Source: a virus
DNA: 64,000 bases
Strand: one strand, 5' to 3'
Virus record (IMG/VR): IMGVR_UViG_3300044648_000036
Span: 1 to 64,000 of that record
Shown piece after piece: positions 24,508-56,900 of this stretch (position 1 is the stretch's first letter; each line of letters starts with the position of its first letter). Under the pieces are notes generated by a model. That model was not told the origin of the DNA, searched no databases, and worked only from the letters and a program-made list of their open reading frames with translations. A program made the translations under genes and the position numbers.

Positions 24508-26490
24508 ATGATTTACCTGATAACCGGCCAGTCTCAGCTCCACACAGAGGGCGCGGGATATAAACTGACCACGATAGAAGAAGTAGAACGGTACTTATCC
24601 GGAGTAGAGGAAGCCTCAGTAGATACAGAGACTACTGGGTTAGACGCTCATCGGGATAAACTACATACCCTGCAGATAGGTGATTACTATAACCAGTACA
24701 TTATAGACGCCTCAACAACGGACATTACCCGGTTGAAGCCCTACCTAGAAGAACGCTTGTTACTGATCCAGAACGCTAAGTTCGACCTGAAGTTCTTGTA
24801 TAAGTACGGAATATACCCGCGTAAGGTGTGGGATACCTTCGTTACGGAGCGGGTTCTTTACTGCGGAATACCCGACCATAAGGCCGGTTTAGATTCACTG
24901 GTTCAACAGTACTGTAACATTACTTTGGATAAATCAGTACAGAAGACTATAGCAAAAGAAGGGCTGGTTACCAAAAACCTTCAGTATATGGCTGACGATA
25001 TAAAGTATCTGTCAGCTATCAGGGATAAGCAGCTGGTCGATCTCAGGAAGAAATATCTAAAGGGTACCTCTAATCTTGAAAACAAGTTTGTACCGGTCTT
25101 AGCCTACATCGAATACTGTGGTATGAAGCTGAACGTACCCAAGTGGACGGAGAAGATGATCACGGATAAAGACCGGATGAATAAGGCTAGGATAACCTTG
25201 GACAACTGGATACTGAATAAAGGTATTAAGAAGTTTATCGAGGTGCAGGGTAACCTCTTCGACCCTCCGGGATGTACTGTTAACTGGTCTTCACCTAAAC
25301 AGGTAGTAGATCTGCTCGAGCACCTTGGGGTAAACTGTACGATCGTAGAGAAGGGTAAGGAGAAGAAGTCGGTGGAGGCCTCAGTGATAGAGAAACAGAA
25401 GAACGAGTTTGAGATCATCTCCCTGTACCTGGAATATAAGAAGGCGGAAAAAATAGTTGGTACATATGGAGAGAACTTTATCCGTCAGATTAACCCGGTA
25501 ACCGGTAGAATACATACCAAGTTCACTCAGATAATGGATACTGGCAGGATGTCTTCAGGCGGTAAGGACCGCGCTACAAAAGAAGAGTTCATCAACTTCC
25601 AGAACATACCATCTGACCCGGAAACGCGATCTTGTTTTATAGCAGAACCGGGAAGTACGCTGGTAGTATCGGACTACTCCGGTCAAGAGCAGATAGTACT
25701 CGCTAATAGGTGTCTGGATAAAAACCTGCTAAAGTTCTATGATGAAGGGCTGGCTGATATGCACTCATTCGTGGCGTCTAAGATGTACCCCGAACTCGAA
25801 GGGTTAGACCTTGACGAGATAAAGAAGTTACATAAGGATAAAAGACAGGCGGCTAAATCTGCTGGCTTCGCCATAAATTATGGTGGGAGTGGCATTACCA
25901 TAGCAGATAACCTCGGTATCAGTAAAGAGGATGGGGATCGGATTTATAACGCCTACTTCCAAGCCTTTCCGGGGTTAAGTGACTACTTCAAGAAGGTGAA
26001 ACAGCAGGGACTAAATGATGGTTATATCCTGATAAGTCCAATAACAGGTAGGAAGTCTTATATCTACTTCTTCGACCGGTATAAGGAACTAGAAGCCCAA
26101 ACAAAAGGAGACTTCTGGGAACGCTACCGGGAAGCTAAGAAAACTCAGTCTAAAGACTGGCCAGAACTATCCAAGACCTGCCGAGAGTACTTCCAGTTAA
26201 AGGGAGAAATAGAGCGTATGACTCTTAACTACCCGATCCAGGGAAGTTCCGCCGACGTAACCAAGATTGCCTGTGTCTACTTCTATAACTGGATTATCAA
26301 CAATAACTACTTCTGGACTGTGAAGATCCCGAACGTAGTTCATGATGAGGTAGTGGCAGAGTGCCCCGTAGACCTCGGAGAAGAGGTGTCTCAGGTGTTA
26401 CACGATACTATGGGTAAGGCAGGAGATATATACTGTAAGAGAGTGCCACTAAAGGCAGACCCGGAACTAACAAGTGTATGGAAAAAATAG
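24508..26490 (+). CDS. DNA polymerase, family A, with 3'-5' exonuclease
   Basis: The protein has 660 residues. Exonuclease motif I is DTETTGL at 39-45 and the exonuclease region continues to about 180. Polymerase motif A is VVSDYSGQEQ with Asp389, motif B starts at Lys450 (KSAGFAINYGG) and motif C is VHDEV with His612-Asp613-Glu614. The 5' nuclease domain is absent, as in phage replicative PolA. This is the main replicase. It ends KK-TAG immediately before a homing endonuclease gene, and an in-frame QLDLF-containing tail lies beyond that gene (27217-27285). Confidence 0.95.
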   Translation: MIYLITGQSQLHTEGAGYKLTTIEEVERYLSGVEEASVDTETTGLDAHRDKLHTLQIGDYYNQYIIDASTTDITRLKPYLEERLLLIQNAKFDLKFLYKYGIYPRKVWDTFVTERVLYCGIPDHKAGLDSLVQQYCNITLDKSVQKTIAKEGLVTKNLQYMADDIKYLSAIRDKQLVDLRKKYLKGTSNLENKFVPVLAYIEYCGMKLNVPKWTEKMITDKDRMNKARITLDNWILNKGIKKFIEVQGNLFDPPGCTVNWSSPKQVVDLLEHLGVNCTIVEKGKEKKSVEASVIEKQKNEFEIISLYLEYKKAEKIVGTYGENFIRQINPVTGRIHTKFTQIMDTGRMSSGGKDRATKEEFINFQNIPSDPETRSCFIAEPGSTLVVSDYSGQEQIVLANRCLDKNLLKFYDEGLADMHSFVASKMYPELEGLDLDEIKKLHKDKRQAAKSAGFAINYGGSGITIADNLGISKEDGDRIYNAYFQAFPGLSDYFKKVKQQGLNDGYILISPITGRKSYIYFFDRYKELEAQTKGDFWERYREAKKTQSKDWPELSKTCREYFQLKGEIERMTLNYPIQGSSADVTKIACVYFYNWIINNNYFWTVKIPNVVHDEVVAECPVDLGEEVSQVLHDTMGKAGDIYCKRVPLKADPELTSVWKK

Positions 26491-26496
26491 TGCCCC

Positions 26497-27216
26497 ATGA
26501 AACCGTTATCAGATCATAAAGATAAATCAGGAATATACTGTATTAAGAATATACAGAATGGTAAAGTTTATATAGGTAAGGCCAAATGTATCTTCAGTAG
26601 GATTCAGAGTCATATTTATGCTCTTACCGGACGAAATAGTAAGAAGTCTAACTCTTATTTAATAAACTCCTGGCATAAGTATGGTCCGGACGCCTTCACA
26701 TATTCAGTACTTGAAAACGTTGATTTTACAGATGAGTCCTTAATGCGGGATAGAGAACTTTATTGGATAAATCTAATGAATGCCCTGGACCCAGACAAGG
26801 GATATAATCTAAGATCCGACTCATCTACAGGAATGGTTACTCATGAAAAAACCTCTAAGAAAATATCAGATCGACTAAAGAAAGAGTGGGAAGCTGGGTT
26901 AAGATCTAGTCACTCAGAAAAATTAAAGAAAAAGTGGGAGGAGGCTCCCCAAAGACGGACTGAACAGGGGAAGATGCTTTCTAAGATTAAAACTAAGTAC
27001 TTCTATCATATAATAAATCCATCTGATAAAGAAGACCTAGGAAGTTCTATGGTGATGGATATGTCTCCCGGAGTTCATGGAGGGTACGATTTACTAAAGA
27101 AGTTAGGACTACAGAACTGTATAACAACCTTTTTTAATCGTAAGTCTAATTCTATATCCTTTAAGGGGTACGATATTATAAGATTCAACCCAGATACTGC
27201 ACCTGAATTTGATTAA
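26497..27216 (+). CDS. GIY-YIG homing endonuclease
   Basis: The protein has 239 residues. N-terminal GIY-YIG domain: GIYCI (12-16), VYIGKA (24-29), Arg35, then RDRELYWI with Glu87 and GYNLR. After it come basic Lys/Trp-rich repeats (KKISDRLKKEWEAG, KLKKKWEEAP) typical of NUMOD3-like DNA-binding regions. The gene is clearly more A/T-rich than its neighbours (for example AAGATAAATCAGGAATATAC) and begins six bases after the polymerase stop. It is likely a mobile free-standing HEG aimed at the polymerase gene region. Confidence 0.85.
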   Translation: MKPLSDHKDKSGIYCIKNIQNGKVYIGKAKCIFSRIQSHIYALTGRNSKKSNSYLINSWHKYGPDAFTYSVLENVDFTDESLMRDRELYWINLMNALDPDKGYNLRSDSSTGMVTHEKTSKKISDRLKKEWEAGLRSSHSEKLKKKWEEAPQRRTEQGKMLSKIKTKYFYHIINPSDKEDLGSSMVMDMSPGVHGGYDLLKKLGLQNCITTFFNRKSNSISFKGYDIIRFNPDTAPEFD

Positions 27217-31832: not shown

Positions 31833-32159
31833 ATGACACTAAACCACAAACCTAACCACTACGAAAACACTACCTGCCTTAAAACAGGAAAAACCGGGTT
31901 CCCTTCTCAAAGGGTGGCCATGGAACAGATCCAAAAATTCAAGGCGTTCAACCGGATGAAGATCAACGGAAGACGTATAAAACACAGAGTCGGTAAACCA
32001 GAACAAACCCGCGCCTATCAGTGCCCATCTTGTAGCCAATGGCACTTGACCAGTATGAAGGAGTCTGAGTACAAGAACAACCTTGACCCGCTGGGAAAAC
32101 CAGTGAGGATCAGGATCAACCACGTTAACGAGTTTAAAAAATATTTATCGGCAGCATGA
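31833..32159 (+). CDS. small zinc-binding phage protein ending in Ala-Ala
   Basis: The protein has 108 residues. It has C15-like and Cys pairs in TCLKTGKTGF and YQCPSCSQWHLTS; the CPxC-x2-WHLTS signature is widespread in small phage proteins and probably binds zinc. It is basic and may bind nucleic acid. It ends LSAA. Confidence 0.65.
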   Translation: MTLNHKPNHYENTTCLKTGKTGFPSQRVAMEQIQKFKAFNRMKINGRRIKHRVGKPEQTRAYQCPSCSQWHLTSMKESEYKNNLDPLGKPVRIRINHVNEFKKYLSAA

Positions 32160-33070
32160 GTAAAAATATCTTAGCCCTATTTGGGGCAGCAGAGTCGGGT
32201 AAAGACACAGCCGCTAAGATCATACAATATCTTACCGGAGTCAAATATTGGGAACAAAAGACTGAAAGAATTATCGACAACCCGATACCTTACGGGTTAG
32301 ACGGATATGAGGACTGGGTCGCACTCAGTCCTTACCAGATAAAGAGGTTCGCCGGTAAAATTAAGGAGATAGCGTCCCTTATTACCGGTGTTCCTGTTTC
32401 CCAGTTCGAAGACCAGGAGTTCAAGAAGTCCTACTTACCGGATAACTGGGACAGGTGGAAAATACAGTTTACCGGGGAACACGGTAATGCTCAGTTTGGA
32501 CCTAATTACTCATCAAAAGAAGAGGCTATAGAAACTGAAAAAAATGCCAGAGTTAGTTACGCGTGGCCTAAAAGTTTAAAAACCGTTATTAGAAAAGAAC
32601 ATATGACCTTCCGAGACCTACTTGAAGAGATTGGCGCCAAGATGAGGGAGGTACACCCTATGTTCTGGATAAACTCCCTGTTTGCAGACTATAAAGGTCA
32701 TACGGAACGCTACCATAATCTTGAAAAGGATGGGTTATCTGAGATGTATCACCATCATTCTTGTGCTGAGTGTAGTCGATCCTTTAATGGGTGGAAGAGA
32801 CAGTACAGATGTCGGGAGTGTATAGAAAAGAACCCAGTTGTCTACCCCTTATGGTTGATAGCCGACGGACGCCTACCCGAAGAAGCTCAGGTTGTAAAAG
32901 AACGTGGGGGCCTTGTTATCAAGATAGTCCGCGAGACAGATAACCCAGTTTACGAGTCAGAGAGAAAACTGGATCAGGTGGAAGCTGACTACGTGATCTC
33001 GAACAATAAGAACAAGGAAGACCTGGTGAAGAAGTTAAGACTTATTCTCATCAAAGAAGGCATACTATGA
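32156..33070 (+). CDS. deoxynucleoside monophosphate kinase-like protein with zinc-finger insert
   Basis: The protein has 304 residues. P-loop GAAESGKDTA is at 10-19. Later MTFRDLLEEIGAKMREVHPMFW and LWLIADGRLPEEAQVVKERGG match the nucleotide-binding and DxR-like regions of phage dNMP kinases, which phosphorylate dNMPs for DNA synthesis. Unlike most of the family it has an insertion with C203-x2-C206 and C219-x2-C222 just before the last core strand, a likely zinc finger. Neighbouring genes are small and unknown. Confidence 0.75.
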   Translation: MSKNILALFGAAESGKDTAAKIIQYLTGVKYWEQKTERIIDNPIPYGLDGYEDWVALSPYQIKRFAGKIKEIASLITGVPVSQFEDQEFKKSYLPDNWDRWKIQFTGEHGNAQFGPNYSSKEEAIETEKNARVSYAWPKSLKTVIRKEHMTFRDLLEEIGAKMREVHPMFWINSLFADYKGHTERYHNLEKDGLSEMYHHHSCAECSRSFNGWKRQYRCRECIEKNPVVYPLWLIADGRLPEEAQVVKERGGLVIKIVRETDNPVYESERKLDQVEADYVISNNKNKEDLVKKLRLILIKEGIL

Positions 33071-34179: not shown

Positions 34180-34209
34180 GGGTGAGTTCATAGTGGGCTC
34201 ACCCTTTTT
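34180..34209 (+). terminator. rho-independent terminator
   Basis: GGGTGAG (34180-34186) pairs with CTCACCC (34198-34204) around an 11-base loop, followed by T5 (34205-34209). It ends the series that closes at 34154. Confidence 0.8.
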
Positions 34210-34761: not shown

Positions 34762-34934
34762 CATTAGAACAGACCCAGACAGATCAGAAGCCAATAAAGG
34801 TATTCATGTACCCCGGAGTAGAGGAGCTCAAGAAGATGACCCCTACCCAGCTCACAGAGACCAAAATAAAAGTAGACCAGTTATCTGACTACTTGGGATA
34901 CCTCATCAGACAAAAAATATATGATATTTTATGA
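34758..34934 (+). CDS. small hypothetical protein (58 aa)
   Basis: ATG at 34758 overlaps the previous stop and the TGA at 34932-34934 overlaps the next ATG, a tightly coupled arrangement. The product is a helical, charged protein with QLTETKIKVDQLSDYLGYLIR. No family is recognised. Confidence 0.55.
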   Translation: MTLEQTQTDQKPIKVFMYPGVEELKKMTPTQLTETKIKVDQLSDYLGYLIRQKIYDIL

Positions 34935-35266
34935 ACAGACCGCTAATTTATATAGCTGGTAAAATCAGTGATCTACCACCCGGGGTAGCTGAGAAAAACT
35001 TCCACGACGCCCAGGTTAGACTGGAAAATCAGGGGTGGGATACCCTTAACCCTTACGCCCGGATAGAAGGGTGGAAGAAGCAGAACGAGGACTACAAAGA
35101 AATAATGAGGTTAGTTCTTCAAGACCTCGCATCCTGTAAACATGCCTACTTCCTGAGGGGGTGGGAAAGAAGTTTAGGAGCGACGTTTGAGCACTTCGTT
35201 TGTCAGAAGACCGGGATAAAGATAATTTATGAAGAACAACCTAAGGAGGAGACCGTAGAGATATGA
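34931..35266 (+). CDS. DUF4406, nucleoside 2-deoxyribosyltransferase-like fold
   Basis: The protein has 111 residues: IYIAGKISDLPPG at the start, a helix, GWDTLNPYARIEGW, DLASCKHAYFLRGWERSLGATFEHFVCQKTG cut to the key parts ASCKHAYFLRGW and GATFEHFVC. This is the DUF4406 pattern, a relative of nucleoside deoxyribosyltransferases and TIR-like folds that bind ribosyl compounds. The supposed nucleophile Glu may be the one in ATFEH. It sits directly upstream of the Prs-like gene, so it may share NAD- or ribose-type substrates. Confidence 0.75.
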   Translation: MNRPLIYIAGKISDLPPGVAEKNFHDAQVRLENQGWDTLNPYARIEGWKKQNEDYKEIMRLVLQDLASCKHAYFLRGWERSLGATFEHFVCQKTGIKIIYEEQPKEETVEI

Positions 35267-36096
35267 TACTAAATTTAAGCAACCCACCGGCCTCAATAAT
35301 CAAGGCTAAGATCGGTAAATACCCTGATGGTCAGCAGTATGTTATTATCGACCCACAATTTACTGTAGGGGAGAACGGAATAACGATATACTCCCGGTTC
35401 AACTCCTTCCTGGATTTAGAACTAATAGTGACTGCCACTAAAGCGCTACAAAACCTTGATGTAAAGAAAATAAATCTATACGTTCCCTACATACTCGGTG
35501 CCCGGTCTGACCGGAAGTTTGAGTATGGTGGAACGTCCTATCTGGTGCAGATTATAGCGCCTATCCTGAACAGTTTGGGCCTCACCAAAGTTTACTGCTT
35601 GGACGTACACAACCAGGCAGTAGCAGAGGCGTGTATTAATAACCTCGTTTGTTATGATAACTCAGAGTTTATCAAACGAGTACTGGGTGACATACAATCC
35701 AAAAACCTTGTTATTGTTACCCCGGACGACGGCGCGTCCAAAAAGATATACCCGCTCTGTAAAAAACTCGGTTTAGAAGTACCCGTCGTCGTGTGTGCCA
35801 AACACAGGGATATTAAAACCGGTAAGATAGAAGGGGTAGATATCCCTCACGGGACACACTTCAAAAATGAAGAGGTAATGTTAATAGATGATATCTGTGA
35901 TGGCGGCAGGACGTTCATCGAAATAGCCAAGAAGTTAAAAACTTGGGGAGAACCTGCTAAAATGTACCTGGCTGTCACTCACGGAATATTTTCCGCGGGG
36001 TTTGATGAACTACACCAGTACTTTGACCAGATATTTTCTACTAACTCCGTGAAAGATCACCCAAATATATCTGTAACTCAATATCCAGTAATATGA
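35263..36096 (+). CDS. ribose-phosphate pyrophosphokinase-like (Prs-like), possible ADPR pyrophosphokinase
   Basis: The protein has 277 residues, shorter than bacterial Prs (about 315). It keeps RSDRK (81-85), LDVHNQ (113-118, metal-binding His), VTPDDGASKK (152-161), the flexible AKHRD (179-183) and the PRPP loop VMLIDDICDGGRTF (205-218). Prs makes PRPP from ribose-5-phosphate and ATP. In phage NARP1 systems the Prs homologue instead pyrophosphorylates ADP-ribose. Its overlap with the HAD gene and nearby NAMPT-like gene points to one pathway. Which substrate it uses cannot be read from sequence. Confidence 0.85.
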   Translation: MILNLSNPPASIIKAKIGKYPDGQQYVIIDPQFTVGENGITIYSRFNSFLDLELIVTATKALQNLDVKKINLYVPYILGARSDRKFEYGGTSYLVQIIAPILNSLGLTKVYCLDVHNQAVAEACINNLVCYDNSEFIKRVLGDIQSKNLVIVTPDDGASKKIYPLCKKLGLEVPVVVCAKHRDIKTGKIEGVDIPHGTHFKNEEVMLIDDICDGGRTFIEIAKKLKTWGEPAKMYLAVTHGIFSAGFDELHQYFDQIFSTNSVKDHPNISVTQYPVI

Positions 36097-36521
36097 TAGA
36101 TAAATATATAAACAGGTTAACCGAAGAGTGGTTACAACACGGTAAGATAATAGTAGCCATAGACTTTGATGACACAATATCTCCTTGGAAGCTGAACAGT
36201 CAGGAAGAGTGCAATAAAGTAATTGAGGTTCTTAAAGATGTGTGTGCTGTCGGAGCCTATATAGTAATATTTACAGCCTGCAGTAGTGACCGTTATCAGC
36301 ACATCGCAGAATACTGTACTTCTAAAGGGTTTAGTATAGATAGAATAAACCAGAACCCCATAGTCTTACCATACGGTAACCAGACTAAGGTGTACGCGAA
36401 CATATTCCTCGATGACCGCGGAGGTCTGGACGAAGCACTCAATATCTTACAAGAGAGCATGTACCGGGTACGTTCATCCAAGTATGGTAAGAACCTCTCG
36501 GAACAAACAGTAGAATTTTAA
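36093..36521 (+). CDS. HAD-like phosphatase (short)
   Basis: The protein has 142 residues. HAD motif I is VAIDFDDTIS (Asp24, Asp26), motif II IVIFTACSS with the Thr/Ser, and motif IV is IFLDDRGGLDEA. Motif III Lys is likely in the region around YGNQTK. It lies between Prs-like and NAMPT-like genes. It could act on a phosphorylated nicotinamide or ribose compound, or be a 5'-nucleotidase; this is inferred. Confidence 0.75.
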   Translation: MIDKYINRLTEEWLQHGKIIVAIDFDDTISPWKLNSQEECNKVIEVLKDVCAVGAYIVIFTACSSDRYQHIAEYCTSKGFSIDRINQNPIVLPYGNQTKVYANIFLDDRGGLDEALNILQESMYRVRSSKYGKNLSEQTVEF

Positions 36522-36533
36522 AAACAGATACTC

Positions 36534-38087
36534 ATGTTTAAACCAAACGCTTTATACTACGTAGATGGGTATAAGATCGCTCATAAAAAGATGCTGGCAG
36601 CAGGTACCACCCGTCTATACGGAACCTGGATACCAAGGTCAGTAAAATATGCTCCTAAAGGAGTAAATAAGATAGTATCATTCGGTCAGCAGTTAATGGT
36701 ACGCTGGCTGCACGATGAGTTCACGGAGAACTTTTTCAACCTTCCGGTAGATGTAGCTCACCGATTCGGTAAAGATATGTGCCTATACCTTGGGATGGAC
36801 TACGACTACACGCACTTCACAGAACTGCATAATCTCGGTTATCTCCCAATCCGCATCAAATCATTACCAGAAGGAGTAGAAACTGATCCGAATATCCCAC
36901 ATATGACCTTCATTAATACTGTAGACGGGTTTGGATGGCTTACTCTGTTCCTTGAAACTATCATTAGCGCCCTGGCGTGGAAGGCCCCGACTGCAGCCAC
37001 TATTCAGAAACTCTATAACCGTAACACTATGGAGTGGGTCACTAAAACCGATCCGGATAATTTATGGTTAGTACCGTTCCTTAACCATGATTTCAGCGCC
37101 CGCGGCCTTGATCCATTCTCGATGATGGCAGTTGGTCTAGGCCATGCTACAAGTTCTTTGGGCTCAGATACACTCATAACCATCCCGGCTGCCCGTTATT
37201 ATTATGACGAGCCCGAAGAGGAGGTCTGTGTGTTCTCTGTTAACGCCTCGGAACACTCAGTATCTACAACCAAAATATTTACAGTAGGGGAGCAGCAGAT
37301 GATAGCAGACTGGTTACAGGATTTCCCGAAGGGAATACTATCTATTGTATCTGACACTTTCGACCTGTGGAAACTGATAACCGAGTACTTACCGGCCAAT
37401 AAGGGATCCATTATGTCGAGGGAGGGTAAACTAGTCATACGTCCTGACAGTGGTGATCCGGTAGATATTATCTGCGGTTGTAAGGTTACTCAATCTGATG
37501 AAGATGAATTACTATATCGTGACCAGGATACATGGGAATCCTACCCGCCAGAAGAAGACATAGTTATTGTGAAACATAAGGTTGGTGCCAAGCCGGTATC
37601 TGAAGCGGAAAGCAAAGGGGTTATAGAAATCCTTTGGGATATATTCGGCGGTACTGTGAACACACACGGTTATAAAGTACTTGATCCTCATATTGGCGCC
37701 ATCTATGGTGACTCGATAACTCCGGACCGTCAGGTAGAAATCTATAAACGGTTAGCGGCTAAAAGGTTTGCTACTACCAACATCGTCTTGGGTATAGGGT
37801 CCTACACTTACCAGATGGTAACTCGTGATACACTAGGGTTTGCTGCTAAAGGCGCCTGGTTTGAGGCCAATGGTACGGGTTACGATATCTACAAGGATCC
37901 GGTGACAGATGATGGAACCAAAAAGTCACTAAAGGGGCTCATTAAAGTAAATCCCAACTTCACTGTTTGTACCCAATGTTCCCCGGAAGAGGAGTCAACC
38001 GGTTTACTCCAAACCATATATGAGAACGGGCAGTATTATAACAAGACCACTTTAAAAGACGTCCGTAACAGACTTAAGAACATATGA
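36534..38087 (+). CDS. nicotinamide phosphoribosyltransferase-like (NAMPT/NadV), possible ADPR-type transferase
   Basis: The protein has 517 residues, close to NAMPT (about 490). Active-site positions by comparison with human NAMPT: HDFSARG with Arg190 (R196), GSDT with Asp212 (D219), ASEHS with His241 (H247), IVSDTFD, and IRPDSGDP with Arg303 and Asp305 (R311, D313). A later GDSITPDRQVEI and VLGIGSYTYQMVTRDT complete the core; the phosphate loop SGGG of NAMPT is SYTYQ here, as in phage NadV. It makes NMN from nicotinamide and PRPP, or NAD+ from ADPR-pyrophosphate if NARP1-like. Confidence 0.9.
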   Translation: MFKPNALYYVDGYKIAHKKMLAAGTTRLYGTWIPRSVKYAPKGVNKIVSFGQQLMVRWLHDEFTENFFNLPVDVAHRFGKDMCLYLGMDYDYTHFTELHNLGYLPIRIKSLPEGVETDPNIPHMTFINTVDGFGWLTLFLETIISALAWKAPTAATIQKLYNRNTMEWVTKTDPDNLWLVPFLNHDFSARGLDPFSMMAVGLGHATSSLGSDTLITIPAARYYYDEPEEEVCVFSVNASEHSVSTTKIFTVGEQQMIADWLQDFPKGILSIVSDTFDLWKLITEYLPANKGSIMSREGKLVIRPDSGDPVDIICGCKVTQSDEDELLYRDQDTWESYPPEEDIVIVKHKVGAKPVSEAESKGVIEILWDIFGGTVNTHGYKVLDPHIGAIYGDSITPDRQVEIYKRLAAKRFATTNIVLGIGSYTYQMVTRDTLGFAAKGAWFEANGTGYDIYKDPVTDDGTKKSLKGLIKVNPNFTVCTQCSPEEESTGLLQTIYENGQYYNKTTLKDVRNRLKNI

Positions 38088-39040: not shown

Positions 39041-39273
39041 CAGAACAAGACATAATAGAATTCATAGAGTCCGGTCAGCCGGATATGGCTATCCTCGGGT
39101 ACTTCCTGATGGACGTAGAAGATAAATCCCCAGAAGCAGCCTACAACTACATAAAACCCATTTACGAAAAAGAGTTATCCCTGGCATTTACCAGGGATAT
39201 TTTTATGGAGTACTTCAACAACCTCGTTGCCCGGGGCGCCATCTCAGAGGGACCGGATATTTCCGGTAATTAG
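39037..39273 (+). CDS. hypothetical protein (78 aa), last gene of the plus block
   Basis: The protein has 78 residues, helical and acidic. Its TAG stop overlaps the TAA of the convergent minus-strand gene by a few bases. A strong hairpin with a T-run (39177-39203) lies inside the gene, about 70 bp before the stop. No family is recognised. Confidence 0.5.
   Translation: MTEQDIIEFIESGQPDMAILGYFLMDVEDKSPEAAYNYIKPIYEKELSLAFTRDIFMEYFNNLVARGAISEGPDISGN
39177..39203. terminator. terminator-like hairpin at the convergence of the two blocks
   Basis: ATCCCTGG (39177-39184) and CCAGGGAT (39191-39198) form a perfect 8-bp stem with a 6-base loop. On the plus strand ATTTTTATGG follows; on the minus strand AACTCTTTTTCG follows. 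It could stop transcription from both sides, and is the only such signal near the meeting point of the two blocks. It lies inside the last plus-strand gene. Confidence 0.55.
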
Positions 39274-44916: not shown

Positions 44917-47900
44917 TTATTTAGTTAGTCCGCAAGCCCTTAACCCGTCCTGTACTTCTTTATCAGACGGGACAGCCGGTTGGTTACCTAAGTTACCTTT
45001 TTTATTAAAATATTCCAAGACCTCGGATGGTAACATCGGTTTTCCCATGAGATCTGAATGGGCCGGATCTACCTGGATGTTTTTACCATCCCTCATGTAG
45101 AACCATCCTATTCCGAAGGTGTAGGTACTTACGACATCATAATTATTCTTGAGTTCGGATACCGGGTTTTGCTGAGAACTATATTCAGCTGCCTCCAGTT
45201 CATACATTTTGGAGTCACCGAGGAAAGAAGGGCTATCCAGCTCACCAATGTTATTATCAACCCCACGTTTTATCAATAGCTGGGAAGTTGTAGGAAGTTC
45301 ACCGAACATCCGGCCAAGACGCCACTGTTTGTTACTCCCTTCCGGCTCAAACCTTTTGTAGACCGCCCTGACACCACGAGCCATAACCTCACCGAGCTGG
45401 ATAAAAGAGTGTGGGTCACTCAACCCCTCGTTCTCCTTACCTTCAAGGGATTCGAGGATATAATACTCATGACGACTAAAGGGTCCACCACCTGCCTTCA
45501 TTTTGAAGACATAGGGAAACAGTACTTCTGTCTTACCGCGTTCTATCATCTGGAATTCAGGATTATCCTCAACAACCCTAGCCTCGGTACGGTAGAACCC
45601 GAACCCTCTAGCTTCGATCATCTGTTTATTCCTGACCAGCATATGGTTCTCTTCAGAACTGAACTTTGAAGGACTGTACTTCTTACGGATACCACCGAAC
45701 AGATCTATTGTTATGGTATTTCCGGTACCACCCTCACCTTCGACCTTGAACGACTCGGCAGCTGTATATTCATCTACAACCTTAATACCGGTAGCTGTAA
45801 ACTTAGGTGTGCCGTTCTTACGGAACATAATGTCAAAACTCGAACCTGAGTTCGTCATATAGTAGGTCATAAACTCATTGAAGAGCTCCGCCTGCCCGAT
45901 ACCAAACACATTTTCATAATCTTCGTCGGACCTACGGGTCTTCATCAGGTCATTAGCCAACCCTGTAGCACTCAACAGGTCACGGAACATAAAGGTTGGG
46001 ATGAACTTTATAAAGCTGCCGGAACGGTACATACCACCGTCTTTTACTAATAAGTAGTGGAACAGGGCTGTAGCTACTTCTCTGCCGGAGAACTTATTAC
46101 CGTTCTTGTCGGTAAACTTCTCCCTGGTTTGGTAGAGGTCCGTAAAGCTGTCCTGTAATTTGTTTACCTGATACTCGGATAGTTTGGCCCAGGTGTTCGT
46201 ATCCAGTTTCGTGATCCCGTCCCTGTTGATCCTGGACGGGACAATCTCCCCGGTCACCGTGGTTTCACTGGTCGGGATAAGATGTAAGAAGTTATTTACA
46301 AGATAGTTACTCTTCTTTCCTGTCAACCCGGACCTCACCATGTTCACAATGTCTGCTATATGGTTGTAGCCTGTGTCAGCCGTATCATATATAAGACGGT
46401 TATCCAGGCTGTTCAACGCGGAGATCCGACCTTTATCCTTCAGCATCTGTTGATAGGCCTTGATACCAAGGTAGGAAACAAGGTTATCCCTGAGGGTAGA
46501 CTCAAAGCGCTCCTTGTTGAATCTGTCCGGCTCACTCAGGTTAGCCTTCACGATACCCTTGATGCGGTTAAACACGTCGGTCTTCTCAAGGAACATACTC
46601 TTCTCGAGTTCTTCCAGCTGGCCTAGTATCTGTATGTAGGCACTCATGAACAGATGATGAGGCAACTCCGGGTCTCTGCCAGTCAATACCTGCCTGAGGT
46701 CAAACGGTACAGGGGCCTTAGAGAACTCTTCGTTAGTCATCATTAACCCGAGCTCTGTTATATTATCTTTTATCTTATCAACATCTTCGAATGATGTACC
46801 CAGCCCTTTAGTAAGTTTCAGTACCTGCGCCACCTTATTATAGTAGATCGTCTGTTTAACGACACCTTCGAATGTCTTCAGAGCAGCATACTCAGATAAC
46901 TCGGAGGGGCTTTTCAGGTTCTCTATCAGGAGATCATCCGTAATATTCGGTATATCTTCTTCAGGCACCTCACTAAACCGGGACCTGAGTTCCGTGAACA
47001 CGGCCTCCGCCTTCACCTTCTTCTCATCTGAACGGGTCACCGCTGATTTATTCAGCAGCGTCTTGGCAAAATACTCCTGTACTATGGGTTGGCGTATTAA
47101 CAACAGCGCGGTTTTTAGGGGAACACCCTGGGCGATCATGTTCGCCACATAACCGGTGGCACTGATATTCAACCCCAGCAGGGCGGCCAGGCGTTCCTTG
47201 GCGTTATCTGTCATTACTGATACAAGGTCAGATATCTGTTTGTTGATACGCTCCCCGTCAAACATACCGGTCTCAGGGTTGTAGGAGTGATAATTCGTGT
47301 AACCGGCACCTATTACCCGGTCACCCATCCGGAACTTGAAGAACGGCACTTCCGCACCCTGATCGTTAATATAAGAGTCACGGATTTCCACCCCATAAGT
47401 ACTCAGCAGGGAGTAGGTAAGCATGGCGTTTACAGCCGGACCGATGTTAGTGGCCCCTTCCTTGTTATTCTTGAAGGCATAATACTTACCCAGAAGTGAG
47501 TTGACATCCGAGGTAGCCTCTGTAAAGTACTTCTCGGCCGGCGTACCTTTGAATATCTCCTGGAACTCTTTCAGTATATCCTTGAAGCTGTCGATACCTG
47601 CCGTCTGGAATGCGATCGGTTTATTTCCCGTTACCATGTGACTGTTACCCAACAGGGCTATCTTCTGCTGTAATATCCTGTTATTCAGTACACCGTTATT
47701 GAGTTCCTTGTTAAGGGTAGCCTCCCTGTATTCTTCAGAAGAATCAGGAAGACCCATCTCCCTTAGCGCCTGAGCCTCTAACATCACATTAAGGTCGTGT
47801 ACTAATTCGTTAGCCTCAGTAACTTCTTCTGATAATTCTACCTGTGCCTGCTTAAGATCACGTGCAGACCACTTGAATAAAGAGTCGTACTTACCGTCAT

Positions 47901-50900
47901 CATTGGTTATCCATTTAAGATCTTCCAGTTGGGTACGTAATTCAGACTTTTTGTCAAGAAGAGACCTGAGATTTTCCTGCGCCTCCTTGTAGTGAGGGTC
48001 TGTTTTTTTAAGGATGTTGATAATATCAGAGTATCTTCTGTTATTCTTCTTCAGCCATACTTTATACTCGTCGAACTTCTCCTGTGGAGTAACAGCTGAC
48101 CCGAACGGTTGTAGCTTACCACCCTTCTTATAGAAGACCTCGGGCCAGTGGATATATAGCTTATCTATATCGAAGTCAGCTCCGGATATCTCAATCAGTT
48201 CATGTGGGAATACCGCGGACGAACCGTAGTACTCAGGTATGAAGTCCACCAGCTTCAGGTTAACGAAGGAGTGTTTATCCTGTGACGGGATACGCACACC
48301 AAACATCTTGGTCAGGAACTCCGGTATCTTCTCCTCAGGTAAGAGTTTCAATAGGTCTTCATACATCGGCGGCATCATGAACTCGGTATAATATCCTGTG
48401 ATATTACCCCGCTCGTCATACTCAGTTACGTTATGTCTCAGGTCATCTATAAAGAAATCCCCCTCCTCAATCGGTTCTTCAAACACCCGGTCGTAAGGAT
48501 TATTGTACTTCTTGGCAGACTTGTAGTATTCCGGATTCTTGGACAGGTATTTCTCCTGTTCACTCCTGCGAACGATCCTGCTCCTTAACGGCCGGCCGGA
48601 ACTATCCCTCTCGGAAGTGAGCGCCTGGCGTACAACCCTTGTACCGTAATTACTTACCAGCGCCACGGAAGTACCGGGCACCTTCTCACTCATCACCCCT
48701 TTCGAGAAATAGGCCAGGAATAACTGGGTATATTTCTTCAGGGTGATCGGGTTGTTCAGGTTGTATAACGGCTGACCGTCCTTTACCTCAAACAGCTCTA
48801 TCAGCTGGTTATCTGCACCAGACGCTTTCAGGGTCTCAACAGCACGTTCCTGGAACGCAGCCAGTTTAGGGGTAACACTACCTGACCGGATAGAAGTACC
48901 CAGTTCCGTCATAGCCTGGTCGATATCAAAGATGTCGTTCCTGGCCTGGTAGAAGTTGTTACTTACCCTGTTAGATGTATCTGAAAGATACATCTCCCGT
49001 ATACGCCCCACAGTCCACGGGTTACCATCACCATCAGTCTCTACCCCCATGAAGTTAACAAGGGTATCATCTGCCTGCTCAGACATGATGACGTGCTTGG
49101 CCTGTGTGGGATCGGTTATCTTTACCTTGTTAGACGGGTTCTCCAGCTGTAACCTCATATACCGGGCCGGCCTGCTCATAAAGTAACGGGACACATCCCC
49201 GTTCTTCAGGTGGGCGGCAGAGTCGGCAGCGTTCCTCTTTATAGCCTTGGCAGTAGTCAGGTCCCCAACGAACGATATCTGTTCCGGATTCTCTGCTTCC
49301 GCCTTATCCATAGCCTCCCTCAGGTCATGGAGTTCCTCCATACCCGGGCGGGAGTGCCACCTGCCTTCTTTATCTTTAAATGATGTATACTGCTTGGACA
49401 GGAAGAACACCGACATCTTGTCATAATCTACCCCGTCATAATACACCAGCTTCTGAGAGTTTAGCATCCTTCCTTCTGCTATTAATCCCGACTTACCGAA
49501 TATCTCCCGGTCTTGGGGGTTGAGGGGGGTACCGGCTTCCATCTTGTCAAGCACCTTAGCAAGGGTTGGGGTGAGTTTACCCAAGGCGAACGCAGTATAC
49601 CGGGCAGCCTTTATAGAACCGTACATCTGTCCGTCCGCTATCTTACCGTCTTCTTTACCATACGTAGCCTTGAACTTCTGGCTCTTGATGTGTGCTACCT
49701 GGATGCTCACGTTCTTATGGTGGATACCCAGTGATGGCGCTGTAAAAATACTTTCGATAGAAGGGCCCGAACCGTTGGCGCCCTTGGCCCTCTTAACAGC
49801 GTCCACGGCATCTTTCAGGGAACGGGACTCATCCCCCAGTAACAGCTGGTTCATGGCCAGTGTATTCAGGTAGTCGTTCAGGAATATCTGAGCTACATTA
49901 TGCTCTATATCCCCCTCGATCATATTCAGACCGTAGTCTTTATCTTCGTTCCCGAAACCCTTCTCGATAAAACCACCTAAAAGGTTATTCTGGTAGGAAC
50001 CATCTTCGTTCTTCGTTATAATCTTACCATCTTGTAGTTCCTGTAAAAACCCGTCAACCTGGCTTCTGAAGTAGGTACGCAGTTGTTTTAATACAGTATT
50101 CTTATCTAGCTTATACTCGGGATCGGCAGCAGATGACTCTATTTCAGCAGCCAGCTCACCGAGGGCAGCCCTCATCTGGTAAAAACGCTCACCGCGACCG
50201 GGGACCTTCTGGCCATCCTTCGTCTCGTAATGATAACCTTCGATATAACCTTCAGGGTATACAGCGGTCTCATTCTGTTCCTTTACCCTGCGGATACGGT
50301 CAAACTCCCTTACCACCTCGTTATACAAGAGGTTCAGGGTGTCTTCGGTTATTTTCAGCTTACCGTTTACTTTAGATACGGTACGGATAACCGGTAACTT
50401 AACAAGATCCCCGGTAGAAGAGGCTTCCAGTACCCGGATAAGGTGCCGGGCCGTCCAGAATGTTTCATCAGCGATCTTTATCTTTTTGTCAGACTCCAGC
50501 CCCTGGTAGAGGTTCATCGTATAGATGAGGAACTCCCTGGGGCCGAAACTACCATAAGACACCCCGTCGATCTGGTTGACTTCCAGTAGCTTATTCACTC
50601 CGCCATCATCATCTATTTTCTCGACCTTCAGACCATCCGCCCGCACCACATTAAAACCGCCAGTAGCCTGTACCTTGTGCAGGTTGTCTAGTAAGATATT
50701 ATTCTTCAGGAACGGGTCCTCTTTCAGTTTATCTATCTCTGAAGACTCGTTAAAGTCTGTTATCCGGTCAAGGTGGTAGGAGGCGTTCTGGAAATCCCAG
50801 ACAAGCTCTCCTTCCGCGTTCTTCCACGAGGTACCCTGTACGGTATCGTCGAACAGAGCATTACCGTTGGCCATATTCAGGAACCGGGTATAAGAACCGG

Positions 50901-53900
50901 AGTCACTTTCCTTCACATAAGGTTTACCTACCTGGATAGCTGTAATGATCTCCTGCAGGTCTTCGGTTTTAGCCGGGGTAACTTCGCTGTAGGCCTCGGC
51001 TAACTTCTGTTGTGTCACCGTCCTCTTATCCTCAGGGATCGTAGCAGACACAGAATATCGTATATACTGGACAGACAGTCCTATACCCAGTTCCTGCTTT
51101 AACAGGTTGGATATCTCCTGTGCTTCGTTCGTTAGCTCCAGGTCTGAGACCTCTTTACGGTTCAATAGGGTGATAAGTGCAGATATGGCTTCAGTCTTCT
51201 CCAGTAAGAAGTTCTTCCTTTTTTCCTTTGTCGTAAGGTCGGAGAACGGTATCAGGTACTTGGTCTCAAACGCCTGCGCCCATTGGTCCACCTGCGTCTT
51301 ACCGCCGTCTTTCCTGTTGGCTGCAAATATCCGGGTACGGTTATCTTCCGATGTAGGGTCTATACCCATAAACAGGTACTGGACCCGGTGTTTCTGGAAA
51401 TCCTTCAACATAGCCTGTACCTGAGACGCTACCGTGTCCTGAGTCATTACAGGGGTACCGTCAGCCTCTATAGTCAGGCCGGCGTCAGAGAACAGTTTAT
51501 TAACGAATTTCCCGGTATCACTGTCTTCATTCCGTAATATGTTGAGTCTCTGGATAACCTTCTCCTGCGAGGTGATACCGGCCATCTGTTTCAGTAAGCC
51601 ATTATAAACGCTGTTCACGTTCACTGACTGCATGATCGGCTCACCATCATTCTGCCCGGTCTCCTCACTATAGAGCCGGTCGTTACCGAAATCATCCGTA
51701 TATGGGAACGCGGTAGTGGCTATGTACTTACGGGTGACCATAGACAGGGAGCCATAACCGCCTATTGAGTAGGCGTTCTTCTTAAAGTCATCAGCTCCAC
51801 GGTCACCAAGTTCATCTACTACAGTTTCATACTCCTCATCCTGCAGGCTCTGGTTATAACCCATGATACGCAGATGTACTTCTACCGCTTCTTTTAACGA
51901 CTGCCTGTTCTCGGGATCAGTGAATACGTTCTGGTAGGATTTTATCTTACCGTAATAATCAGCCAGCTTCCCGAGGTTACCACCAAAGATTGCCTTAGCC
52001 TTATCCTTGTACAGGGCCGGGTCGTAGGTCTTCTTATAAACGTCAAGTAGTTTTTCCAGCTCCTCGTTCGTGTTATACTCGGCCTTCTTACTCACTACCA
52101 TATGGAAACTACGGGCGAACGCGGCCGCCAGTTTATCTCCTTCCTCCTGTGTCAGGTAACGCTGAACGGTAACCGTCTGGCCGTCCTCTGTTTTTATCAC
52201 CTCTTTGTGAGACTTGATAGACTTCAGTGCCGGTTGGGTGATATGCTCGTGTTCCGGGTTAGTGAACCTGTTAGCGGCCAAGGTAGCGTTCTTATACTTA
52301 CCACCTTCGATTTCGGAGAACAAACCTTCGATCTCCCCGCGGGTAAACCGGTCTATAAATTTCTTTATCCACTCCAGCAGACGGGCGAAGAACGACTTGG
52401 CGACATGGGAGGTCTCGATAGACTTATTCGTCTTCCACTGGTCGAACCTGTCCGCCAGGTATTCCTCCAACGCACGTTCTTCCAGCTCTTTACGGCTCAT
52501 CCCTTTATACATCGGGTGGAGCCCTTTGAGTTCTTCTATTCTGCGGTCTAGTCCTTTACCGACTTCCCGGCGGGCTATATCCAGTAACTGGGTTATCTTG
52601 TTATCTGGTAACAGCAGGCGGAAGATCGCGTGGAACGCCTCGTGGTATTTATAAGGACTGTCTTCTCCTACGAATATCTTACCGCCGGTAACTGCTTTCT
52701 TACCGTTCAGGATTTCCAGTGAGCGCAGGAAATAACCTACAGTCACACTCTTCTCGGCCAGGTTCTTCGTTAGTTCTTTGAGTTCTTCTACGGAAATAAA
52801 GTCCGGAAGATTGTCCTTCACCCAGGAAACGAAACGGTCATAGTTTTCTACAGATAATCCTGTCAGTTCTTCCGGTTGCAGTACTTTTAATACCTCACCC
52901 TTGAACCGTGCGGCTACTCTGTCCGCCTCTTCACGGAACTCGGATACCGCCTGTATGATAGCGTCCTGTTCTTCTATCCCTTTAGCTGTCAGTTCACCTA
53001 CACGATCATTCATCCACTCTTCCTCACGTGCTATAAAACGATCCCAGTCGTTCTCTTCTTCTTCGGCCAGCACCACCCTGGTCCCCTCAGCTACATTTTG
53101 GATACGCTCAGGGACTTCCTCAACGACCACTGGCTCTTTTTCCTCTTTAATAGGGACATAGTTCTCGACCGTAGGAGTAACTGAGTACACCAGTCCGGCA
53201 TTCTTAACGATATTTTTACTTACTGAAGTAGTCAGAAGACTAGCCAGTACATCCGGATCAGTAACGGTAGCCGGGATGTGCTGCAGCATATTATCTGGGG
53301 TCAGGGTAAGCTCCAGATTGAATGCAGGGTTACTCTGCCGTACTTTATCAACAGCCTTCTTTATAGCCTTATTGACCTCTGTGATAAAGTCAATGGAGTC
53401 TTTGAACTGTAACCCCGTTTTCCCTGCGTCCACGTAGATCGCCGGCATCTTCAGGGTTTTATCGGAAGGGTTACTCAGGTGTACCCGCAGGCCACCGTTA
53501 CTCACCAGCTCCACGTCTATATACCATCCCTTGTTCTCAAACGGTACGGACAGGAACAGGGTACTCCCAATTACCTTGTTAACTTCATCCATGAGCGCGG
53601 GATCTACTTTCTCCCCATCTTTAAGCGCTGCCGTTTTCTCAGCCAGTTTAACTGAGTTCTTATTGATCGTGTCCAGCAGGGAATTAACCGCTTCTTCCGG
53701 CAACCTATCCGGGTAACACTCCACATAAACCACCTTACCCCCGGGGAGCTCAATGGCCATGACATAACGCCCCAGGTTCTTACTCTTGTCATCCAGTTCC
53801 GTCAGTTTAGAACGTATAGCCCGGGAATCCTTTAACCCGGCGTCCGTAATAACCGTTTCCGTAGGTATGGGCCCACCATCCTCGTAACGGGTAGTCCTGC

Positions 53901-56900
53901 TGACAAAATATTTCTTACCGTTGACCGAGTGATAATTCAGCTCCATCGGGCTCAGGCCTTCCTTCACAAAATCAAATTCTCCGGTAGTAGTAGCAAAACT
54001 CATCAGTTCAGACAACTTTTCCCCGGATAGGACCAGGGACTTCTTATCCTTCATCTCCGCTGCGATCAGTATGCGGAGCTGGTCAGCCTGGATAGCATTA
54101 TTTACGAACGCCTTATGAAGTTCTATGGGATTACCCCCCTTTATGTCTGTCTTGAATATCCTGATAAAATCCTTTAGGGTGATATCCCGGGCACTGATCG
54201 TCTTACCGTCTATTTTAACCGTATACAACCCGCCGTAAGTCAGGAACCCGACCGGGGTATCATTACCGTCAAGGTGTATAGCTACATTAAAGGGGTTGGA
54301 GTTTGTGAACAGGTAGGGGTTTGACGTCTTCCTGTTGGAGTACTGGGCGCCGTTATTTGGGGTAATCCTCACAGACAATCTGCTGTTCAGTTGGTCCTTT
54401 GGTATGGCTACCAGTATGTCACTCATCTGTTGTTTGGCTGCCTCAGTTAACACCCCCCGTTCTTCCTGTGAGAGCCCTGACCATAAAACGGTGTCAGCCA
54501 TTTCAGGGATATAAGGGTATATCCTGACCAGCTCGTGTACACGGGTCAGCTTTAGGTTTTCTTCGGGTTTTTCTACAGGTTCCTCTACGGTCAGTTTTTC
54601 TATAGAAGACACCTGCAGTTTATCCTTACTGTTCGACGGGTTGACCAGAGTGAGGTAACTATCCTTTACACCGGATACACGCCACCTGCCTTCGGGGTTG
54701 GAAACTGTTTTCTTACCGGTGAGCACTTCTCCTACGTGTAACGTCTTACCGTCAAACTCCACTGTATCGCTCTTTATCTTACCCGAGGAATAATCATTTT
54801 TGAAGGTGTCCACGGTATAACGCGAACCGTCTGCGAACCGAAACTCATTACCGATAACACGGTCTACTGTAACAGTCCGTACTTCCCCTTCGTCATTCTT
54901 ATAAGTAAACGACTTACCCACATACCAGTTAATATCCTCCGGGGCTTCTGCAGGAGTAAGCTCTTCTTCAGGCGACGCCTCGTCAGTGATGATCTCTGTG
55001 GCGAGTTCTTCCTTGACCTCTTCTACACCGGCCTCTTTCATCATCTCCTCTATCCTGGCCTGCAGAAGATTACGGGCCGCCTCTTCCAGCGCCTCTGCTA
55101 CTTTATTATGAACCTTAATAAACTCCACCGGGTTTACCAGTGTGTTATACGCCTGTATGTGCTTACCTGCCTGTTTGTCCAGCTTGATGTAATCCAGCAG
55201 TTGGCCCATGGTGTCCTCTACGTCCGACTCCGATACGATAGACTTATTGTTATTCTGGGCGTTAACCGAGTTGATATAACCCCTGTAGGAGTTCAGCAGC
55301 TTACCCCGGAAGTCGGAGCGGGCCGATGTCTCGTCCAGGTCGGTTAGTGGGTTCTCGTGTACTTCCCTGATACGTTCCAGGTTAGCCAGTTGTTCCTTCA
55401 TCTGATTACGTAATTCAGCAGACTCGGCTATCCCCTCAAGTGTCTTTATCTCTTTGGTCAGGAGTTTGATCTCTTTTTCCAGCGTATCCAGACTACCAAT
55501 AATGTCGAACGCCTTGTTTACGGATGCCCCGATACCCGGCACACGGGCTGCTTCCGACTTCAGCTGGGCGGCCCTTTTAACGGCCTGCTTCATCTTGTAG
55601 TCAGAGGTAGCCAGTATCTCGATGGCCTCATCCAGCGCTCTCTTGGCTACCAGGGCCTTAAAACGATCTGATTCAGGGTCGAGTATTTTCTCACCCTTGT
55701 CGTTCGTCAAGTCTTTACCGTCAGCATCCTTCATATAAGATGCGGCGTACTGTTCAGGTTTTACCCTGCCAGCGAACCTATCCTTCAGGTCTTCCCATAC
55801 GGTATAAAAATCTTTTATCTGTGACGCGAACCCGGTCATGTACTCACGCACCTTCCCCTTACCGGCCTCTGTAAAGTCGATTCCGAACGCCTGCTTGAAC
55901 TCCTCCTCGGTAAGATGTTCTCCGTAAGACTCTATTGTATCGAGTACACTGTCGAACATATTCATCTTGATGGCGGTACTGAATAGTTTAGCCGCACCGG
56001 TCTCCTTGATGTTGTTGTAGTTGAACCTGTCCTGTGACTGCAGGGCCGCTTCCATCCCCTTAGCCGCTTCATCCTGTACTTTCAGGTTAGCGATCGCTGG
56101 GTTCAGTATGTTCTTAGGATCTTTATAGAAGGCGTTCAGCAGCTCTATGTTCTCCTGTACGTCCTTATCAGCCGCCGTTTTAGCGTCACGGTATCCCTGG
56201 TTAAACCGGGAACGGGTAGCGTCATATCCCTTCATCAATCCTGTCTGAATAGGGCTCACGAGCTTACCTGTTACCGCGCCCATCAGGAAGGTCTTGAAGC
56301 CTTCTTTGGATGCCTGTGCCCCCAGTCCTTTATCTACCGACTCTTCCCAGCTACCTTTACGGCCATCATACAGATCCGTATAGTAATCGGTAATTGCGGT
56401 CTGTGAGGAGTTCTGCAACAGTTCCTGTACGCCTTCCGCTACTTCCATCTTACCGGCGTGAAGACCGACAGACTTAGCTGCCTCCCAGTAGGCCTTACCG
56501 GCACCAAAGTCGTTCTTTATCTGGCGGAACGCTCCGAGTTTACCGAACCAGTCGGATTTCCTGTAGGCCTGGGTAGCTTCTTTACCTGCTATCTTACCTG
56601 AGACCTCAAATGCCTTTTCCTCGGCATCTGTAGCCAGTTTCGACAGGGCCTTTTTTGAAGAAGAGAACTTATCCATCAGGTTACCGAACTCTATCCGGTT
56701 CATCACCGCCAGGATACCTGTATTCACGATGAAGTTATCTGTGGCGCCGTCCTTGGCCAACCGCTCTATGCGGTTAAGGTCTTCCCCAATAGGGTCTGTA
56801 CCGTGAGTGCTGACGTACTTCTCGTAGAGATTATTGTATAATGTTCCGTAGGTCTGTGCTGCCTCCATCCGGGCCTCGGTAGCTGCCGCGTTGAACTCGG

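Follow-up and report, generated by a model that had tools for sequence, protein, structure and literature searches.

The closest described relatives of the locus studied here are the NARP1 pathways of the phages SPbetaL1 and Bas63, each comprising the enzymes Adps and Namat, and the NrsAB system of ICP1 (PMC12774641, PMC11559045, PMC13232231; these papers, like PMC9503650 and PMC12846349 below, are cited from those of their parts that were available to us). NARP1 has so far been described as a two-gene pathway. In the NARP1 operon of the mycobacteriophage DyoEdafos there is in addition RyDEP, an RyR-domain glycosidase that frees ADP-ribose for Adps (PMC13232231). We have analyzed a stretch of 64,000 nucleotides of viral DNA, termed the window in what follows, corresponding to bases 1-64000 of an IMG/VR record (IMGVR_UViG_3300044648_000036) of 67,152 bases in total. 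Four genes between positions 34931 and 38087 encode a DUF4406 protein, a short homologue of Prs, a HAD-superfamily phosphatase-like protein and a homologue of NAMPT. For longer context we used a second contig of 134,155 bases; this is identical to the window across the 17,551 bases compared, and we take it to be the same virus. The genes, and the sites within them that are discussed below, are as follows.

34931-35266, + strand: DUF4406 gene, an open reading frame (ORF) of 111 amino acids (PF14359 at 6.6e-15)
35189-35191, + strand: codon of Glu87, candidate catalytic glutamate of the DUF4406 protein, invariant in 11 of 11 aligned rows
35263-36096, + strand: Adps-like gene, a short Prs homologue and candidate ADP-ribose pyrophosphokinase of 277 amino acids (PF00156 at 2.5e-9; phrog_619 at 8.6e-64)
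35887-35916, + strand: loop DDICDGGRTF of the Adps-like protein, identical in Bas63 and Netyap
36093-36521, + strand: HAD-superfamily phosphatase-like gene, 142 amino acids, short and with no apparent cap domain (best PHROG match phrog_1238 at 9.7e-21)
36162-36176, + strand: HAD motif I, DFDDT, residues 24-28
36534-38087, + strand: Namat-like gene, a NAMPT homologue and candidate nicotinamide ADP-ribose transferase of 517 amino acids (PF04095 at 6.9e-30; phrog_448 at 7.5e-149)
36645-36650, + strand: Lys38-Tyr39 of the selectivity-clamp loop, aligned to R40-V41 (K38-Y39 in ICP1, K42-W43 in Bas63)
37254-37256, + strand: codon of His241, aligned to the presumed catalytic histidine
37797-37829, + strand: clamp helix motif GSYTYQMVTRD, residues 422-432, by alignment to the Namat signature

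The original prediction had placed here four tightly coupled genes of the families named. The ORFs are confirmed, all in one direction, with overlaps of 4 nucleotides (nt) between the DUF4406 and Prs-like genes and between the Prs-like and HAD genes, and a gap of 12 nt between the HAD and NAMPT-like genes. The family assignments are borne out by matches to Pfam and PHROG models, that of the HAD protein by PHROG models only, there being no Pfam match for it at E 0.01.

From the sequence comparisons described below it is very probable that the Adps-like and Namat-like genes constitute the core of a NARP1 pathway, of a kind that is already known. The two genes are neighbours with the HAD gene between them, which is the pairing looked for in NARP1. 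If the products act by the two-step chemistry described for Adps and Namat (PMC12774641), the first would use ATP to convert ADP-ribose into ADP-ribose pyrophosphate (ADPR-PP), and the second would join this with nicotinamide to give nicotinamide adenine dinucleotide (NAD+) directly. In this way the phage could refill the NAD+ destroyed by TIR- or SIR2-type defences, which leave ADP-ribose and nicotinamide.

We further propose, with a probability of roughly 0.3, that a wider system for the salvage of ADP-ribose is built around NARP1, both in these phages and in Bacteroidota genomes. In it, proteins with the nucleoside deoxyribosyltransferase (NDT) fold (PF15891, or DUF4406 in the case of the window) and a phosphatase of HAD or macro-like type would return cyclic or base-linked ADP-ribose and ADP-ribose-1''-phosphate to ADP-ribose for use by Adps and Namat. 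The HAD and DUF4406 proteins would then be feeder enzymes for NARP1. The HAD protein might strip phosphate from dead-end forms, for example ADP-ribose-1''-phosphate or broken-down ADPR-PP, to yield ADP-ribose, a specific role that we put forward tentatively. The DUF4406 protein might act on a signal molecule containing ADP-ribose, or on a related nucleotide, and hydrolyse its N-glycosidic bond, either freeing ADP-ribose or removing the signal; this too is a possible rather than a probable assignment. The products of defence include ADP-ribose-1''-phosphate and cyclic forms (PMC9503650), and a similar conjecture exists for the phage Adele, where NARP1 has a macro-domain gene as its neighbour (PMC12846349).

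The assignment of the NAMPT homologue can be examined against SPbetaL1 Namat, for which a crystal structure, contact residues and a clamp signature are published (PMC12774641). The signature consists of a helix GSX-Phi-X-Phi-X-Phi-TRD and, in the clamp loop, a residue that stacks. Position 3 of the helix is the adenine-stacking aromatic and position 7 a second stacking residue, most often aromatic; the clamp loop has Arg as its third residue, or Lys or Tyr third with the fourth residue stacking, Bas63 providing the Lys example (PMC12774641). Mapped onto this protein, the active-site core of the window's homologue is complete, as had been claimed for it from the sequence. The SPbetaL1 contacts D11, Y13, F187, S188, R190, D212, A238, H241, R303 and D305 are kept, as are G392, D393, G422, S423, T430, R431 and D432. 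The sole change among the contacts checked is SPbetaL1 A362 to S394 in the window, and serine is also found in Bas63 and ICP1. His241 we take to be the catalytic histidine, presuming its position from that in human NAMPT.

In the clamp itself, K38-Y39 follows the stacking rule for the loop, with Lys third and the fourth residue stacking, and Y424 fits the first adenine-stacking position of the helix. Among 79 related loci (the window's own population included, before dereplication), position 3 is F in 62 and Y in 17, and position 7 is Y in 41, F in 22, M in 15 and C in 1. Methionine at position 7 is thus a recurring variant, being carried by 15 of the 79 loci. Nevertheless, M428 stands where an aromatic residue is usual, and this is one of several observations that weigh against a NARP1 assignment and are taken together here. 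A second comes from an 80-row tree of NAMPT-like proteins. Four canonical NAMPTs are set apart in it with support of 100/100, and the window's protein has around it relatives that mostly have Adps near; Haemophilus ducreyi NadV nests among the Namat-like rows, the four reference Namats are spread over more than one clade, and several of the branches are long. Given the placement of NadV, the split of the reference Namats and the long branches, the tree by itself cannot tell the two chemistries apart; the bootstrap of the Namat trees had in addition not settled. A third lies in the Prs homologue, where the loop that we discuss below varies among the reference Adps enzymes (DDLSSFGGTF in SPbetaL1, DDICDGAASF in ICP1).

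Some of these observations would favour plain salvage, in which the Prs-like protein makes phosphoribosyl pyrophosphate (PRPP), the NAMPT-like protein makes nicotinamide mononucleotide (NMN), and a host adenylyltransferase completes NAD+. Met428 replaces an adenine-stacking aromatic residue, the tree groups NadV with the Namat-like proteins, and NMN is still formed from PRPP in vitro by a Namat of proven activity (PMC12774641). We regard this route as quite improbable. In H. ducreyi NadV (plasmid pNAD1), which presumably makes NMN, helix positions 3 and 7 are Q and R, and in the NAMPT of KP27 they are G and E; both stacking positions are replaced in these proteins, but only one in the window. 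No Adps gene was found within the 3.2 kb fetched around the H. ducreyi NadV gene.

The loop of the Prs homologue also speaks against PRPP synthesis. Where the solved Prs enzymes aligned have DDIISTGGTI, the window departs from them as Bas63 does, and the exact string DDICDGGRTF occurs in 52 of 68 related loci (before dereplication). Because the loop varies among the reference Adps enzymes, its identity with that of Bas63 is support for an Adps and not proof of one. The equivalent loop in Prs is the one that, we assume, binds the 5-phosphate; in the window it may have changed to suit a substrate with AMP attached to its 5-phosphate. The phage proteins that match this one of 277 residues best share 37-40% identity with it and include those of Lbo-JY46 and AV123, in which a NAMPT-like gene is close by. 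Overall, 1,269 of 50,697 phage records match the Prs-like protein. Searching the 134-kb contig with the CTP_transf_like model (NMNAT, PF01467) gave no match, though a host enzyme could serve plain salvage; the 67-kb record was not searched with that model, and the domain is present in 7 of 16 records that were.

The partnership of the two genes was examined in a set of 53 loci, these being the dereplicated clusters (from 94) that have a NAMPT-driven member and flanks of 5 kb or more to either side, the window included. Scoring the neighbours by iterated profiles within 6 kb of Namat, we found Adps in 51 of the 53. The prediction of a NARP1-type pair is supported, at the level of sequence, by the clamp residues, the Prs-like loop, the separation from the four canonical NAMPTs, the constancy of the Adps partner and the absence of an NMNAT domain from the 134-kb contig. 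Compared with the phage NMN route (NadV with NadM or NadR), the window shares a NAMPT-like enzyme, but PF01467 is lacking from that contig and the clamp residues differ from those of canonical NAMPT. With the NARP1 loci of SPbetaL1, Bas63 and ICP1 it has in common closely placed Prs-like and NAMPT-like genes, the catalytic residues and the clamp motif. The Adps loop is identical to that of Bas63 and unlike those of SPbetaL1 and ICP1, and the window adds a HAD gene between the two genes, a DUF4406 gene in front of them, and methionine at clamp position 7. The identity of the window's Namat is 38-44% to the reference Namats and 72% to the Leptolyngbya phage Lbo-JY46. In one related locus (L014:6001-7624) the Namat gene is split into two overlapping frames, perhaps through a frameshift or a mistake in the assembly.

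The linkage of the HAD gene to this core was examined by the reverse search. Driven by the HAD protein, it returned 18 loci, of which 17 carry Namat and 17 carry Adps (before dereplication); the two misses are short contigs. From the identities listed, these loci represent about 11 distinct HAD proteins, one of them from the window's own population. Of the 53 loci, 18 have the HAD gene, and in 15 of these no more than 300 nt separate it from the Namat open frame. On the outcome of the reverse search, chance adjacency was rejected as the main account of its position. The best Namat tree requires 13 changes between presence and absence of the HAD gene, 8 or more of them forced by well-supported branches, and from these repeated changes the association has been gained or lost many times rather than inherited once.

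The HAD protein has the expected residues of the superfamily, D24, D26 and T28 of motif I, T61 of motif II, the lysine K99, and D107 and D108 of motif IV, which are invariant or nearly so in 21 rows. Its predicted model has a predicted local distance difference test score (pLDDT) of 91.6, with the best fold match to 2obb (BT_0820; Z 10.8, 4.2 Å, 110 residues aligned), which was also the only match, a weak one, in a sequence search of the PDB. Membership of the BT0820-family HAD phosphatases (NF046079) was rejected despite this fold match, at 27.6 bits against a curated cut-off of 165. The match to the phosphatase of T4 Pnkp (polynucleotide kinase) has Z 7.5, a value below 8 that may mean only a common arrangement. 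One relative (L052:7602-7973) has EFDDT in motif I, the first Asp being replaced by Glu, and is possibly inactive; no Adps was found by phmmer in that locus of 17.5 kb.

For the DUF4406 protein a sequence search of the PDB gave nothing useful. The predicted model (pLDDT 87.1) has its top match to 1t1j (Z 13.3, 2.5 Å, 103 residues aligned), and matches nucleoside deoxyribosyltransferases with Z of about 10-11, DNPH1 with Z 10.4 and MilB with Z 10.1; chains of Thoeris ThsB (TIR) stand lower in the Foldseek list. It is plausible from the model that the protein is an N-glycosidase of NDT/DNPH1-type fold, with Glu87 the putative equivalent of the NDT nucleophile, while a shared fold does not show function.

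The HAD and DUF4406 genes could alternatively be bystanders of general nucleotide metabolism that share a transcription unit with NARP1. A deoxynucleoside monophosphate (dNMP) kinase-like gene lies ~2 kb upstream, DUF4406-like genes occur in few NARP1 loci and also in other phages (49 records), and more distant HAD relatives are found in 31 phage records. The constancy with which HAD-driven loci contain Namat, and the short distances between the two genes, are not expected of bystanders. In a set of 50 records chosen by hand among the loci found, including four HAD-driven ones, PF14359 is present in 6; in 4 of these, among them the window's own population and a match that falls below the cut-off, the gene is a neighbour of Namat, and in 2 it is far away. 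We consider the bystander explanation rather unlikely. The suggestion that the DUF4406 and HAD genes may be extra parts of the pathway is thus well supported by linkage for HAD, and moderately so for DUF4406.

What else accompanies Namat was surveyed in the best 80 environmental loci nearest to that of the window, a sample biased to close relatives. A first census, in which families were not preselected, covered up to 8 kb on each side in 62 clusters at 90% identity. The most frequent families were Adps (57 clusters), NDT2 (PF15891; 36), HAD (22), macro-like (20) and SPFH (17); NADAR was found in 10, and other families present in 10-13 clusters include an RNA ligase and an HAD_SAK_2 protein. 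In the 53-locus set the counts besides Adps are NDT2 28, HAD 18, macro-like 16, NADAR 9, SPFH 9 and DUF4406-like 6, and 14 of the 53 loci have none of HAD, macro-like, NDT2 or DUF4406-like genes. In raw counts the HAD and macro-like genes tend to avoid one another (both in 1 locus, HAD only in 17, macro-like only in 15, neither in 20; Fisher p 0.005).

The label of the macro-like family is a weak one. PF01661 covers 37 residues at 23.2 bits, where phrog_335, annotated as a phosphatase, scores 157 bits; against the DarG model the family scores 31.7 bits, under the cut-off of 250. Only 5 of 49 records gave a PF01661 match at E 0.001, the model missing most of the family.

Linkage of NDT2 to Namat is close. 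PF15891 occurs in 26 of the 50 chosen records, and distances were taken in 23 of the 26 (G044, G048 and G049 left out), before dereplication. In 21 of the 23, on contigs of 46 to 289 kb, it lies within 5 kb of Namat, and compared with a uniform position this closeness has a combined Fisher p of 1.7e-14 (before dereplication). Conversely, 73 of 80 loci in an NDT2-driven search carry Namat, as do 41 of the 42 with full 8-kb flanks, these falling in 30 clusters of which 29 have Namat. PF15891 was found in 43 records of cultured phages, of which six were fetched (~20 kb each); in CcrColossus there is a Namat-profile match ~7 kb from the PF15891 gene, beside a NUDIX gene. A further companion is an SPFH/Band_7 protein of ~620 amino acids (L097:7918-9837 and relatives; 17 of the 62 clusters), which among 67 loci was never within 6 kb without NDT2 (10 of 10).

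The DUF4406 gene is the only NDT-fold gene found in the window's record, and is of the same fold class as PF15891. Its structural resemblance extends to DNPH1 and MilB about as well as to the NDTs, and this raises the possibility that the accessory proteins act on a defence signal, a nucleotide phosphatase and a DNPH1-like deoxynucleotide N-glycosidase removing the dNMP or deoxyinosine triphosphate (dITP) signal of Kongming-type systems, or another nucleotide signal, while Adps and Namat repair the damage. A phage 5'-nucleotidase can counter Kongming. The system triggers its NADase via dITP (PMC12774641). The companions found elsewhere, namely macro-like, NADAR, PARG, ARG, KptA and NrtR, point to ADP-ribose and not to deoxynucleotides, and we think it unlikely that the two genes act in this way.

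These companions are most apparent in bacteria. We collected 80 bacterial genome contigs with NDT2, 48 of which have full flanks. In 30 of the 48, Adps lies in the same 16-kb stretch as NDT2, and the other genes there are NrtR-like (28), NADAR (25), KptA (24), Namat (23), calcineurin phosphoesterase (20), DUF4291 (16), PARG (12), ADP-ribosylglycohydrolase (11), macro-like (10) and HAD (2). The titles of the 30 Adps-bearing contigs (Aquimarina, Flavobacterium, Chitinophaga and others) are of genera that we take, partly by assumption, to be Bacteroidota; prophages may be included among them. Namat matches number 27 in the 80 loci, and the signature is present in 24 (e.g. GSFTYQYNTRD, GSYTYEYVTRD), being partial or lacking in 3. 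Operons led by NrtR occur with varying gene sets in L244, L250, L256, L270, L272 and other Bacteroidota contigs. We regard this NrtR-led set as a candidate ADP-ribose salvage operon, which de Souza & Aravind 2012 may partly describe. Being ADP-ribose-centred, it suggests a purpose for the phage accessory genes.

Against an ADP-ribose salvage system of the breadth proposed here there are several findings. DUF4406-like genes lie within 6 kb of Namat in only 6 of the 53 loci. The window's 67-kb record has no match to PF15891, PF01661 or PF08719; the absence of PF01661 says little, since that model misses most of the phage macro-like proteins, and the profile of the phage macro-like family itself found none within 8 kb of the window's cluster. 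Replacement of the macro-like protein by the non-homologous HAD protein was considered and set aside, as the avoidance is a raw one and phylogenetically independent pairs, too few in number, were non-significant. Nor is PF15891 a NARP1-only family. No match to Namat or Adps profiles was found in the ~20 kb from Erythrobacter L02, Xanthomonas X1, Alishewanella Slicko01, Prevotella Lak-C1 and Stenotrophomonas DLP_6, that is in five of the six cultured-phage loci, and in the other 18 of the 48 full-flank bacterial loci none of the partners listed was present.

The limits of the transcription unit may be marked by two hairpins, both found by consensus match only.

34180-34204, + strand: terminator-like hairpin with a T tail, possible upstream limit of the unit
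39176-39199, either strand: hairpin with a T tail in each orientation, at which the unit may end downstream

A terminator and promoter pair had been claimed to precede the cluster. The upstream hairpin is a good terminator-like one; promoter-like matches are no more numerous than chance would give (18, against 14.8 ± 3.4 in shuffles). Three small ORFs lie between the hairpin and the DUF4406 gene, the ATG of which overlaps the stop codon of the preceding ORF. With these ORFs intervening and the promoter matches at chance, the four genes probably belong to a longer unit and do not begin it.

Elsewhere in the window, the dNMP kinase-like protein (32156-33070; phrog_139) has an internal Cys-rich stretch, CAECSRSFNGWKRQYRCREC, resembling a zinc ribbon. 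A homing-endonuclease-like ORF (26497-27216) directly follows a DNA polymerase-like ORF (24508-26490), and an oppositely directed block contains an ORF of 4,300 amino acids (44917-57819, - strand) beside others of 1,493 and 975.

The Adps-Namat core taken alone is ordinary, and phages often carry NAMPT-like genes (the window's protein has matches in 1,914 of the 50,697 records, canonical NAMPTs included). As far as our searches reach, what appears to be unreported is that a HAD phosphatase and NDT-fold proteins have joined NARP1 repeatedly, and that bacteria have an operon to match. A recurrent link of PF15891, DUF4406 or this HAD family with Adps and Namat was not found in the literature searched, and the Nature 2024 paper on NARP1 and de Souza & Aravind 2012 may hold part of it. 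The available parts of Iyer et al. 2022 (PMC9503650) describe phage NADAR near NadV-like genes, the combination of macro with NADAR, bacterial systems in which ADP-ribose enzymes have phosphatases coupled to them, and viral DrHyd proteins only of the ARC type. The themes of NADAR, macro and phosphatase are common to that network and to our loci; the NDT2/DUF4406 link and this HAD family were not found in those parts of it. Like the NARP1 locus of DyoEdafos with RyDEP, the window has a small extra gene, but of NDT/DNPH1-type fold (DUF4406) and accompanied by a HAD gene rather than of the RyR-domain type, and ADP-ribose release is only proposed for it; the sequence comparison here used Netyap.

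The candidate enzymes are small and their substrates few, and the idea is directly testable. Should the bacterial operon be what we propose, it would suggest a role for bacterial NARP1, left open in the available part of PMC12774641, as ADP-ribose salvage under an NrtR-type regulator. If the accessory genes feed ADP-ribose to Adps, phages would, besides repairing NAD+, recycle immune signals made from it, as RyDEP does (PMC13232231), and the immune signal itself would become a source of NAD+.

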